Positions 3,487 to 29,728 of a DNA stretch of 30,690 nucleotides are shown one piece after another; the first letter of the stretch is position 1, and each line of letters opens with the position of its first letter. Origin of the DNA: a virus; the IMG/VR virus record IMGVR_UViG_3300018481_000978, positions 1 to 30,690 of that record; one strand, written 5' to 3'. Made by a program: the position numbers and the translations under genes. Under the pieces are notes generated by a model. The model was not told the origin of the DNA. It searched no databases and saw only the letters and a program-made list of their open reading frames with translations.

Positions 3487-4404
3487 TCAGGCCGCGTGGA
3501 ACTCGCTGCCGGTCCACTGGTGCAACGTGTCACCCGTGGGGAGCGACCCGACAAGCCAGAGGCCCTTCAAGTCACCCATGCCCAACTCCCGCTTCGTCGC
3601 GCCGAGGCGTTCGTAGAGGTCGTACTCGGCTTGGTCGCGAACCCACGAGACGGTGTGCCCCAGCCCCTTGGAGTCGATCATGCCGACGAACTTGGCGTTG
3701 ACGTCCTTCACAGAGAGCAGATGCAGCACGAACGTTCCTCCTGGGATCGGGGTGGGACCAGGCTGCCCGCCCATGAGTGAAGCGACCTCCGCGCGGAAGA
3801 GGTCCATGTTCCAACGGCACGCGTTGTTGCAGCCGTCGTGGTTCCCGTCGCAGAAGCGGGACGGGCCAGTGGGGTCGCACTTCCGGTCGGTCCACTCCCA
3901 GTGGCTCAGCGAGTCCGTCGCGGGCACGAGCCCGTAAGCCTGGCTGAGAGCGACGTTGATCTTCACCGCTGAGTCCTGCTGCGACGCCGGGTACGCCTCA
4001 CCTGTCCCTGCGTTCGCGATCTCCAACCCGAATCCGTTGGAGTTCCCGGCGTCTTCGGGGACTGTGCCCTTCGATGACTGCCACGGAGGCCGGCTGTCGC
4101 TCCCCCCACCCTTCCCTGCGTGGTTGCTGGCGCCCCCGGCGTACAGATGCAGCAGACCGGTGCGGTCGAGCAGGCCGTTGGCGATCGGGTTGTCCGGCCC
4201 GGTCATGCAGTAGTTCACGTCGTTGGCCGGTGTGGTGTTGGAGGCGGTGTGGTGGTTGTAGATCACAAGGAGTTGAGAGAAGCCGCCGCTGCTGCGGCTG
4301 TTCCACTCCCATCCTGGGTAGACCTTCAAGGGCACCACGTCGTCCAGCACGTCGGCCACGTTGCGGTAGTTGGGCGTGGAACCGTTGAGCCAGATGTCGC
4401 CCAC
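3487..4404 (-). CDS. Endolysin: N-acetylmuramoyl-L-alanine amidase (Amidase_2)
   Basis: The 305-aa protein has an amidase_2 (PGRP-like) domain at about residues 40-205, which cuts the amide bond between MurNAc and the peptide stem to release progeny at the end of infection. Zinc-site elements are VIYNHHTAS (His 51/52), NHAG (94-97), FGLEIAN (Glu 128) and SHWEWTDRKCDP (His 168 with Asp/Cys near 176-177). A Pro/Gly linker (GQPGPTPIPGG, about 213-223) leads to a C-terminal region of about 80 residues that may bind the cell wall; I do not recognise its family. The GTG start overlaps the previous stop by one base (TAGTG). No signal peptide is seen, so export would need a holin. No holin gene is adjacent; the nearest candidate is at 20626. 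Confidence 0.88.
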   Translation of the reverse strand: MGDIWLNGSTPNYRNVADVLDDVVPLKVYPGWEWNSRSSGGFSQLLVIYNHHTASNTTPANDVNYCMTGPDNPIANGLLDRTGLLHLYAGGASNHAGKGGGSDSRPPWQSSKGTVPEDAGNSNGFGLEIANAGTGEAYPASQQDSAVKINVALSQAYGLVPATDSLSHWEWTDRKCDPTGPSRFCDGNHDGCNNACRWNMDLFRAEVASLMGGQPGPTPIPGGTFVLHLLSVKDVNAKFVGMIDSKGLGHTVSWVRDQAEYDLYERLGATKRELGMGDLKGLWLVGSLPTGDTLHQWTGSEFHAA

Positions 4405-4622
4405 TACCGCAGTCCTCCCTCGCGTCGCAGCCGGTCGAGCAGATCAGCGAACGCGTAGGCGTACGCGGCTCGCTCGTCGGGGTGCAGGTCATCGAACAGC
4501 GGTCGCGACTCGTCTTTCGTCACGTGACGTAATCCCCGGAGTAGTAGACGTGCCACGGATTCCGGGTCGGGAGCGTCAGTGTCGAACGAATCCGCTGGTT
4601 CCCAGTCCCCGAAGTCACTCAC
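4404..4622 (-). CDS. Small acidic hypothetical protein, 72 aa
   Basis: This is a soluble, acidic protein with a helical centre (DPESVARLLLRGLRHV and DERAAYAYAFADLLDRLRRE). It has no membrane segment, so it is not a classical holin despite lying just before the endolysin. I choose GTG 4622 because it lies exactly six bases after TAGGGT (4629-4634), matching the leaderless pattern of several other genes; GTG 4628 would add two residues. It overlaps the amidase start by one base, so the two are probably translated together. Function unknown. Confidence 0.65.
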   Translation of the reverse strand: MSDFGDWEPADSFDTDAPDPESVARLLLRGLRHVTKDESRPLFDDLHPDERAAYAYAFADLLDRLRREGGLR

Positions 4623-24998: not shown

Positions 24999-25004
24999 AG
25001 GCTA
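24999..25004 (-). promoter_or_regulatory. TAGCCT -10-like box, 7 bases before GTG 24991
   Basis: Reads CACG-TAGCCT-GCGGCCA-GTG on the - strand. Its TAG (25002-25004) is the stop codon of the upstream small gene. Confidence 0.45.
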
Positions 25005-25220
25005 CGTGGTCGGATCGACCTCGATCAGTTCTGGCAGCGCCGGGGGCGCTTTGAGGTAGTCGTGGTAGGCGGCGGTCCACGTCGTCGCGGCGTCCTTCCA
25101 CTCAGGCGACGCTTCGTTCCAGGGGGGACCGCCGTAGGCGTTGGCTACCAGTGCCCAGGCCCAGTGCATCAACTCCCGCTCTGTGCGGACCTTCTTCGCG
25201 ACCTTCTTCTTCTTGGCCAC
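25002..25220 (-). CDS. Small hypothetical protein with Lys-rich N-terminus, 72 aa
   Basis: It begins with AKKKKVAKKVR, followed by a Trp-rich helical part (MHWAWALVANAYGGPPW, WKDAATTWTAAYHDYL) and an acidic end. No family recognised. The basic tail could bind nucleic acid or the inner virion surface (inference). GTG 25220 follows the previous stop by nine bases. It lies in the terminase-to-portal interval with two other small genes. Confidence 0.6.
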   Translation of the reverse strand: MAKKKKVAKKVRTERELMHWAWALVANAYGGPPWNEASPEWKDAATTWTAAYHDYLKAPPALPELIEVDPTT

Positions 25221-27447: not shown

Positions 27448-27453
27448 AGGCTA
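27448..27453 (-). promoter_or_regulatory. TAGCCT -10-like box, 6 bases before GTG 27441
   Basis: Reads TGAC-TAGCCT-CCGCTC-GTG on the - strand. The TAG (27451-27453) is the stop codon of the upstream ribbon-helix-helix gene. Confidence 0.45.
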
Positions 27454-27612
27454 GTCAGTCAACGGCTCGGCATACGCGCTGTCCACGTCATCGAGCCGTC
27501 GTAGATGGGCGCGCAACGCCTCAGCGACGATGACCGCTGGCCACGTGTGGTGCTTGTCGGCTCGCTCTCGTAGCCGCTGCGCCAACGCCGGGTCAGAGAT
27601 GCGCACGATCAT
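27451..27612 (-). CDS. Small ribbon-helix-helix-like protein, 53 aa
   Basis: The sequence MIVRISDPALAQRLRERADK followed by PAVIVAEALRAHL fits a compact ribbon-helix-helix fold: a short strand (IVRI), helix A, a turn and helix B. Such proteins are usually DNA-binding regulators. ATG 27612 overlaps the stop of the sortase-like gene (ATGA), so it is translated with it. A longer open reading through the neighbouring gene's frame is a shadow. The target is unknown; the palindromes at 30547-30598 are possible operators but nothing links them directly. Confidence 0.65.
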   Translation of the reverse strand: MIVRISDPALAQRLRERADKHHTWPAVIVAEALRAHLRRLDDVDSAYAEPLTD

Positions 27613-27995
27613 GTCGGCTGGCAGAACACCAGCAGCCGCCCGCCCGGGACGGAGGTTTGGAGCACCAGCGGCCAACCAGAAATCTGCCCCGCTGAGTTGG
27701 AAGCGGTAACGACCTTCTTCACGACTTTCCACTCTTGCGATCTCCCGCCGATGAAGCCGGTCGTCCAGAACCGGTCGCCCACGTCGATCGCGGGGAGCGA
27801 GCGGAACACCGAGCCGTGGGTGGTGCGATGCCCTGCCAGCAGGTTGCCGTACAAGAACGCGACGTTGCCCTGGTCGATGGTGGCTTGGCCGCCGTTGACG
27901 ATCGGTTCGTGGATGCCGAGTTCGTGAATGTGCAGCATCGGCGTGCAGGCGCTGAGCAGTAACGCTACAACGGGTGCCAACCAGTACCGTTTCAC
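27609..27995 (-). CDS. Sortase-like lipoprotein with Ser in place of the catalytic Cys, 128 aa
   Basis: The N-terminus is a lipoprotein signal (MKRYWLAPVVALLLSAC, lipobox ending at Cys 17). The rest resembles a short sortase core: LGIHEPIVNGG, YGNLLAGHRTTHGSVFRSL (His 56 in the G-H-R motif), LPAIDVGDRF, and a final strand LVLQTSVPGGRLLVF where sortases have L-x-T-C...R. Arg 120 is present but the Cys position is Ser 115 (TCC). It is shorter than most sortases. The GTG start overlaps the stop of the surface-protein gene (GTGA), and that protein ends in a sorting-like tail, so a working pair is likely. It may be an inactive or altered transpeptidase; a non-sortase beta-barrel is possible. Confidence 0.7.
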   Translation of the reverse strand: MKRYWLAPVVALLLSACTPMLHIHELGIHEPIVNGGQATIDQGNVAFLYGNLLAGHRTTHGSVFRSLPAIDVGDRFWTTGFIGGRSQEWKVVKKVVTASNSAGQISGWPLVLQTSVPGGRLLVFCQPT

Positions 27996-29728
27996 AAGCC
28001 GAACTCGTCAGAGCGGCGCCACGCGATCGGCACAGCGACGACACCGACGCCCATGAGCACGAGCGCCCCTGCCAGTCGGACGAACGTCAGCGTCCCCCCG
28101 GCTGGGGGGAGTTGGGTCAACGACGCCGGTCGCACGATGGGGAAGCCGCCTTCATCGAGCGGGACGTCTGGCCCGAACGGGCCTTCTGGGGACGCGCACA
28201 GCGCCGTCTCTGGCGGGTACGTGATCGTCGTGGTGGCCGTCACGACCTGCTGGAAGATGGGCCGCAGCGACTGACCGAGCGAACCCCCCGCCGTGAGCGG
28301 CAGCGTCGCGGTGACAGTCAGCCCATCACGGAACTCTGCGTCAGTCGGGTCGAGCACCCAGAAGCCGTCGTCGTTGAGCACCCAGCCAGGCCAGTCAGTC
28401 GCCTCGCCAGTCACCGGGTCGAACGAAGCGCCAGGGTACACAAGTCGTACCGTCGAGTTGGCTTGGTACGTGACCGGGATCGTCTCCACGAAGTCGCCGT
28501 CGAGGGTCGAGAACGTGATGGTGCCGACCAGACCGTTGAACTCTGGCTGGTTGCCGAACGTGATGTCGATGAACGGCACGTCACGCGAACACACACTGGC
28601 GGCTGAGCCGATGGAGAGCGACCTATCGTTGAGTGATGCCGTCGTCGTCGTCCCACTCGGACCAGTCGTCGTGGCCCCCGCCAGGGTGGTCGTCGGCGCC
28701 AGAGTCGTGGCGGGTGTGGTCGTGGTGGGAGACGTCGTTGTGGGCGGCAGTGTCGTTGACGGCAGTGTCGTTGTGCCTGGCAGCGTTGTGGTGGTTGGCA
28801 CGCAGTCTTCGGGGAACGAGAGCGTGACGGGCGTGGCCGTCTCGCCGCCCACTGTGTAGTTCAGCGTCACAGAGCCGGTCCCAGCCGACGCGGGCCACGG
28901 CACTTGGACTGTGGCCCCAGAGATGAACGTCAGCGGGATCGAACCGCCAGTGGAGAACGTGAGCGTGCCGACCATGCTGTTCAACGCCGGGATGCTGGGG
29001 AACGTGATCGCGATGAGCGGCGTCTCACCGTCTGGGCAGATCGCTGTCACAGCCGGGAACGAGAACTGGCCGCCAGTGGGGAGCGTCGTTGTCGTGCCGC
29101 TCGTGGTCGTGGTCGTGGCGGGCTGGGTCGTCGTCGTGGCGGGGATAGTCGTCGTGGGCGGCGTGGGACGGCACTGATCCACGCTCGGCTCGGGACCCCC
29201 GTCATCGAACGCGATGACGAGTGAACGCCCTTGACGATCAGCGAACTCAGCGCCGATGAAAGCGCCACCTGGGATGGCGTTGACGCTGACAGAGATCGGG
29301 TTCTGACCTGTCTGCAAGCGCTCATCCACACCAGGGGTGCCGACGAACTTGCAGACCCACACCTTTCTCGGGATCGACGTCGCGCTACTCGCTGTCGTGG
29401 TCGTCGCAGGCAGCGTCGTCGCGGTTGTGGTCGTGGCGGCTTGGGTCGTCGTCGTCGCGATCGTCGGCGGTGGCGGTGCTGGTGTCGTCGTCGTCGCAGG
29501 CTGTGTCGTGGGCGGGCTCGTCGTCGTCGCTGCGCTCGTCGGCGGCGTCGTCGCAGCGGTCGTCGTGGCGTGGACAGTCGTCGTCGCGTGCGTCGTGGTC
29601 GGGTATGGGTGGTCCCCCCCGCCAGCACTGGCAGGTGTCGAGATCGTGAGCAGCGCGACAGCCCCCAACAGCGGTAGCCCCACGAACGGCGCCACAATGA
29701 TGGAGTGCCGTGATTGTTGTGTGCGCAT
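27992..29728 (-). CDS. Secreted Thr-rich surface protein with LPPAG sorting-like tail, 578 aa
   Basis: Order of parts: signal peptide (1-35, cleavage after STPASA); Thr/Pro/Ala linker (about 43-119); a domain with VWVCKFVGTPGVDERLQTGQ and FADRQGRSLVIAF (about 122-187), a pattern seen in actinobacterial and actinophage proteins; linker; beta domain 1 (about 219-309); linker of TTT-x-P repeats; beta domain 2 (about 373-500), homologous to domain 1 (shared ITF..-x-(F)N-x-VGT(L/I)TFST); then LTQLPPAGG (LPPAG at 540-544), hydrophobic span (about 547-569) and RR. The tail has the layout of a cell-wall sorting signal with Ala for Thr. It lies between the terminase small subunit and a sortase-like gene. 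Confidence 0.8.
   Translation of the reverse strand: MRTQQSRHSIIVAPFVGLPLLGAVALLTISTPASAGGGDHPYPTTTHATTTVHATTTAATTPPTSAATTTSPPTTQPATTTTPAPPPPTIATTTTQAATTTTATTLPATTTTASSATSIPRKVWVCKFVGTPGVDERLQTGQNPISVSVNAIPGGAFIGAEFADRQGRSLVIAFDDGGPEPSVDQCRPTPPTTTIPATTTTQPATTTTTSGTTTTLPTGGQFSFPAVTAICPDGETPLIAITFPSIPALNSMVGTLTFSTGGSIPLTFISGATVQVPWPASAGTGSVTLNYTVGGETATPVTLSFPEDCVPTTTTLPGTTTLPSTTLPPTTTSPTTTTPATTLAPTTTLAGATTTGPSGTTTTASLNDRSLSIGSAASVCSRDVPFIDITFGNQPEFNGLVGTITFSTLDGDFVETIPVTYQANSTVRLVYPGASFDPVTGEATDWPGWVLNDDGFWVLDPTDAEFRDGLTVTATLPLTAGGSLGQSLRPIFQQVVTATTTITYPPETALCASPEGPFGPDVPLDEGGFPIVRPASLTQLPPAGGTLTFVRLAGALVLMGVGVVAVPIAWRRSDEFGL

Follow-up and report, generated by a model that had tools for sequence, protein, structure and literature searches.

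A Thr-rich protein with an LPPAG tail and a sortase-like lipoprotein with serine at the cysteine position: a candidate surface-display gene pair of uncultivated phages

Why should a phage carry, among its packaging genes, an exported protein that ends like a Gram-positive sorting signal and, overlapping it, a gene for a lipoprotein that resembles a sortase, the enzyme by which bacteria attach proteins to their walls? The question is raised by a 30,690-bp uncultivated virus record, analysed here at its full length and referred to as the window. Phage-family matches were obtained for its portal, capsid, tape-measure and terminase genes; the portal relatives come mainly from actinobacterial phages and we infer an actinobacterial host. 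Read along the minus strand, the genes run TerS-like, 578-aa Thr-rich protein, 128-aa lipoprotein, 53-aa ribbon-helix-helix (RHH)-like protein, 181-aa protein of unknown function, TerL and portal, with the following features.

30403-29762, minus strand: TerS (phrog_4102, E 2e-9)
27992..29728, minus strand: Thr-rich surface protein, 578 aa, with signal peptide, Thr-rich linkers, at least three small domains and a sorting-signal-like tail
29624..29728, minus strand: Sec-type signal peptide, residues 1-35, predicted cleavage between STPASA and GGG (read by eye from the sequence)
28196..28624, minus strand: conserved C-terminal domain, predicted with good confidence as a beta-sandwich (AF2, pLDDT 87), with a Cys pair and DWPGW...GFW and YPPE motifs seen in the alignment
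27995..28111, minus strand: LPPAGG-hydrophobic-RR C-terminal tail, sorting-signal-like with Ala instead of Thr
27992-27995, minus strand: GTGA overlap, the GTG start of the lipoprotein lying on the TGA of the surface protein
27609..27995, minus strand: sortase-like lipoprotein, 128 aa, with lipobox LLSAC and GHRTTHG and LQTSVPGGR motifs
27609-27612, minus strand: ATGA overlap, the lipoprotein TGA lying on the next ATG
27451..27612, minus strand: RHH/RelB-like protein, 53 aa (NCBIfam antitoxin match weak, E 0.0056)
27441-26896, minus strand: 181-aa gene between the RHH-like gene and TerL
26947-25490, minus strand: TerL (Terminase_6N, E 2e-12)
3487-4443: endolysin of the window, far from the surface protein/lipoprotein pair

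The initial annotation described a secreted Thr-rich phage protein with an LPPAG-hydrophobic-RR tail, and reading of the sequence confirms it. The tail reads LPPAGGTLTFVRLAGALVLMGVGVVAVPIAWRRSDEFGL, and the protein combines an export signal with an LPxTG-like motif, a hydrophobic stretch and a basic tail. The P1 residue is Ala rather than Thr, and relatives carry LPxTG. Like the LPXTG proteins of Gram-positive bacteria, then, the window protein has a signal peptide, a Thr-rich stalk and an LPxxG-hydrophobic-Arg tail. Unlike them it is encoded among phage packaging genes, has Ala at P1 and an ectodomain absent from Pfam, and many of its relatives stop at LPxTx without a transmembrane (TM) segment.

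The GTGA and ATGA couplings were likewise read in the sequence as had been claimed. The same annotation treated three genes as one group between TerS and TerL; the trio does lie there in the window, but so does the 181-aa gene, and the interval given for the group, 27609-29728, spans only its first two genes. Neither the third member nor the location is a lasting feature, since in a second phage with the adjacent pair (IMGVR_UViG_3300018476_000022, hereafter G001) no RHH gene follows the pair, which sits directly after an amidase endolysin gene. The 53-aa RHH-like gene is probably outside the conserved unit. Elsewhere in the window a small conserved gene, TERELMHWAWALVANAYGG (25002-25220, minus strand), adjoins a DUF1360/phrog_781 gene, and it is also found near the surface protein in loci L115 and L118.

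A membrane protein together with an overlapping lipoprotein gene is the layout of spanins, and the position of the G001 pair directly after an endolysin would suit a spanin-like, lysis-related envelope pair. We consider this very improbable, however: the window pair is far from its endolysin, a sortase fold and a long Thr-rich ectodomain are unlike spanins, and relatives of the surface protein mostly occur without the lipoprotein.

That the lipoprotein is related to sortases is supported by several comparisons. Pfam Sortase (PF04203) matches it with an E value of 1.2e-4 (22.3 bits, under the curated cut-off of 26.6), the NCBIfam class E sortase model matches weakly (18.6 against a cut-off of 160), and a profile built from three members of the lipoprotein family matches the sortases 4d70 (E 0.0016) and SrtE1 of Streptomyces coelicolor (5cuw, E 0.0033). 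AF2 modelled the lipoprotein poorly (pLDDT 57); when this poor model was compared with the PDB by Foldseek the top 31 hits were all sortases, the best having an E value of 1.1e-2 and probability 1.00 and none reaching 0.001 or below. The class E sortase SrtE1 (PDB 5cuw; PMC5148588) shares with the lipoprotein a GHRxTHGxxF His region, in which GHRTTHG of the lipoprotein aligns with GHRNTHG of SrtE1, so that a His stands at the catalytic position. In SrtE1 the catalytic Cys320 terminates strand beta7 and Arg329 is on beta8 (PMC5148588); the corresponding predicted strand of the lipoprotein ends LVLQTS and hence the Cys position is occupied by Ser.

27828..27830, minus strand: His56 codon, sortase catalytic His position (GHRTTHG), from alignment to SrtE1
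27651..27653, minus strand: Ser115 codon, expected catalytic Cys position (LVLQTS), from the motif and predicted strand 110-116

Besides this Ser for Cys, the lipoprotein differs from SrtE1 in that the Arg is not always kept, in being phage-borne and in being lipid-anchored rather than held by an N-terminal TM helix, with a mature domain of about 110 aa.

After all scans the lipoprotein family has four members: the window (G000), G001, G019 (IMGVR_UViG_3300045303_000182) and G030 (IMGVR_UViG_3300043473_000069). The lipobox Cys, His56 and HGSxF are invariant in all four, and all four have Ser at the Cys position (LQTS/QYS); the C-terminus of G030, where the automatic alignment was gapped, was aligned by hand with LTVQYSGCGGACLVRARP beneath LVLQTSVPGGRLLVFCQP. 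At the Arg position the window, G001, G019 and G030 have R, R, N and A, respectively, and at the downstream Cys they have C, C, C and A. Thus the sortase-like lipoprotein with Ser for Cys that had been proposed from the window is supported by the Pfam match, the profile matches and the Ser in four members, across which His and Ser stay constant down to 33% identity as neighbouring residues vary. The window and G001 lipoproteins are 71% identical in amino acid sequence, their genes differ by 32/21/70 substitutions by codon position and dN/dS is about 0.17; the gene is coding and under purifying selection. G030 also has a second small lipoprotein-like ORF (LLWGCSDDDSN; L192:2176-2547, plus strand) about 0.4 kb downstream of its sortase-like gene.

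Searches outside these records returned little. The sortase-like protein and two further members gave nothing significant by tblastn against 50,697 sequenced phages, and the sortase-like protein had no relevant match among plasmids. In IMG/VR the pattern AGHRTTHG returned G001 and three chance matches, and xVxQTSxPG returned G001 and G019 plus chance matches. Sortase patterns (A1, two narrow patterns) found no relatives in the genomes of 84,980 prokaryote species, a weak negative.

The C-terminal domain of the surface protein is more widespread: pattern-seeded scanning of a 2.9-million-contig collection recovered it in 37 IMG/VR records, many of them fragments. Its alignment has 26 invariant columns. 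The domain had no convincing family match in Pfam, nothing significant by tblastn against the 50,697 sequenced phages, no relevant match among plasmids, and neither a close fold nor an identity in the PDB and viral structure libraries; the window protein had no match in PHROG. Judged by its sequence, the domain defines what appears to be an undescribed and unnamed family of uncultivated phages. Patterns for it (A3, two narrow patterns) likewise found no copy in the genomes of the 84,980 species, again a weak negative, and the suggestion that the pair decorates the host as a lysogen is unsupported in that two narrow patterns found no copy there.

Across the family the surface protein begins with a signal peptide or a lipobox, and its genome location varies among phages. 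In the window the Thr-rich gene lies among head and packaging genes, as might be expected if its product were a decoration or tail protein of the virion and not a cell-surface protein, but the family-wide export signals, the sorting-signal tails and the differing locations make a virion component hard to credit.

The tails fall into two classes. Among 31 distinct surface proteins in our tail table, twelve end in an LPxxG-type motif followed by a TM segment and a basic tail. The other 19 have no TM segment and 18 of these terminate exactly at [LIV]Px[TA]x, an ending that only 3 of the 524 remaining ORFs of these loci share; L115 and L116 (LPETG-TM) and L124 (LPITE, no TM) fall outside the motif of this count and were read separately. 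The TM-less LPx(T/A)x endings (L094, L097, L098, L101, L102, L105, L107-L110, L112, L119, L121, L123, L129, L132 and L134), for example LPPTR, LPPTA and LPPTL, amount to a sorting motif without membrane segment and basic tail, and these relatives have no obvious anchor. A frameshift origin was considered for them and rejected, as reading of the other frames revealed no general TM frame downstream. Several TM-tailed relatives start with a lipobox (L096, L103, L111, L113, L120, L131 and L142), and the combination of an N-terminal lipobox with a C-terminal LPxTG signal suggests that these could be membrane-to-wall linkers. Three phages with an LPPTx-ending surface protein encode, in addition, a further Thr-rich secreted protein about 680 aa long, which contains N(T/S)GxN and ATGNxSxTxxxQ repeats and ends LPLTC or LPATC (L119:11422-13461, L134:8105-10156 and L135:1960-3966, all plus strand).

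Do the surface protein and the lipoprotein belong together? The evidence for co-occurrence differs with the side from which one looks. Thirty-three of the 37 surface-domain records, many of them fragments, have no detected sortase-like gene, which suggests that the partner is dispensable for the surface-protein family; LPxTG-tailed relatives that have no partner presumably use host sortases. From the other side, collection scans with the sortase led to no contig without the surface protein, and both contigs reached in this way, G001 and G019, encode this rare domain family. Independent occurrence of homologues, which had been named as a ground for rejecting a connection, is therefore seen for the surface protein, and the lipoprotein was found only in its company. 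All four lipoprotein carriers are TM-tailed (4/12 versus 0/19, Fisher p 0.016, relatedness ignored). No surface protein/lipoprotein pair was found at the loci of the 80 best TerL relatives and other loci (about 1 Mb).

The genes are adjacent only in the window and G001, and both of these tails read LPPAGG, which occurs in no other TM-tailed relative of the tail table. The two genes of G019 lie on opposite strands with about 2.3 kb between them, and those of G030 are separated by tens of kilobases; both surface proteins have LPPTG tails. The expectation that the tail variant would track the Ser variant thus holds in part: LPPAG is found in exactly the two adjacent pairs, but two Ser carriers have LPPTG and a non-adjacent gene. 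The surface domain of the window is 65-76% identical to those of L089-L093, which have other tails and no lipoprotein, and only about 40% identical to that of G001. Set against the 71% identity of the two lipoproteins, this indicates that the LPPAG tail is accompanied by the lipoprotein even where the ectodomain is a different one; by these comparisons tail and sortase-like gene appear to behave as one module.

It could still be that the tail anchors the protein in the membrane in the ordinary way or is a signal for the host's sortase, and that the lipoprotein gene is a small, unrelated one of this phage clade. The majority of surface-protein relatives lack the lipoprotein, and joint descent is possible in that tail-fibre and endolysin genes (about 35-83%) are common to the window and G001, on account of which the two are not fully independent witnesses. 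We nevertheless regard the absence of any functional link as unlikely: the pair is kept at two genome positions, with divergent surface domains, 71% identical lipoproteins and the same LPPAGG. Adjacency maintained in two phages despite about 40% surface-domain identity argues for a real link, as had originally been supposed. A different reading makes the surface protein a fellow passenger and the lipoprotein a decoy for host sortases or LPxTG precursors. A non-catalytic sortase fold at the membrane would suit such interference, as would the non-adjacent genes of G019 and G030; confinement of the lipoprotein to surface-protein records and its translational coupling in two phages speak against it, and we think it quite unlikely.

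The reading that we tentatively prefer, while allowing that it may well be wrong, is that the pair is a surface-display cassette of the phage in which the sortase-fold partner binds the LPPAG tail or handles it in some way. Tail recognition, surface location, time of expression and biological effect we infer as follows. During infection the Thr-rich protein would leave the cytoplasm through Sec and stay on the cell envelope by virtue of its LPPAG-hydrophobic-RR tail. The lipoprotein, a sortase fold lipid-tethered on the outer face of the membrane, would be a dedicated partner recognising this tail; its main activity would most likely be that of a tail-binding pseudo-sortase or holdase, with serine transpeptidation the less likely alternative. 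Infected cells coated in this way would probably differ in cell contact or in how further phages adsorb to them.

We favour binding over transpeptidation because two residues of the established sortase triad, His-Cys-Arg (PMC5148588, PMC9520033), are affected: Cys is lost in all four members and Arg in two. A serine enzyme is kept in consideration by the constancy of His and Ser. Were it an active sortase, Ser115 and His56 would cleave LPPAG between Ala and Gly and attach the surface protein to the wall or some other acceptor; the change of P1 to Ala exactly where the gene is adjacent would agree with this, as would a His and Ser unchanged down to 33% identity, and yet with the triad so depleted we judge such activity improbable. 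The more general proposition that a lipid-anchored sortase fold with Ser for Cys is a dedicated LPPAG handler, whether binder or serine transpeptidase, on a route apart from the host Cys sortases, we advance as a doubtful but serious one. In the open-access literature searched we found no description of a phage serine-sortase system.

The cassette may have a role in superinfection exclusion or adhesion, and we suppose a benefit to the phage because phages are known to export proteins that keep out superinfecting phages. Ltp of phage TP-J34 is an exported superinfection exclusion lipoprotein (PMC3952083), and an Ltp-like gp41 has been proposed for Cutibacterium acnes phages in a report that nowhere mentions a sortase (PMC11480721). 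Like the predicted products of our pair, Ltp and gp41 are phage-encoded, exported and envelope-tethered in Gram-positive hosts, and the window lipoprotein has a lipobox; family searches showed no sequence relation to either protein.

The domain family, which turns up repeatedly in uncultivated actinophages and had no match in our searches of Pfam, PHROGs and sequenced phage isolates, would be described here for the first time. The existence of this family, with a sortase-like partner found only alongside it, suggests that some phages may decorate infected cells in their own way. If our reading is correct, infected actinobacteria would carry on their surface envelope-anchored proteins of the phage, presented with the help of a phage-specific sortase-fold partner; how a sortase fold evolves once the catalytic cysteine is gone could be tested on the lipoprotein, and the cassette could represent a novel form of superinfection exclusion or of remodelling of the cell surface.
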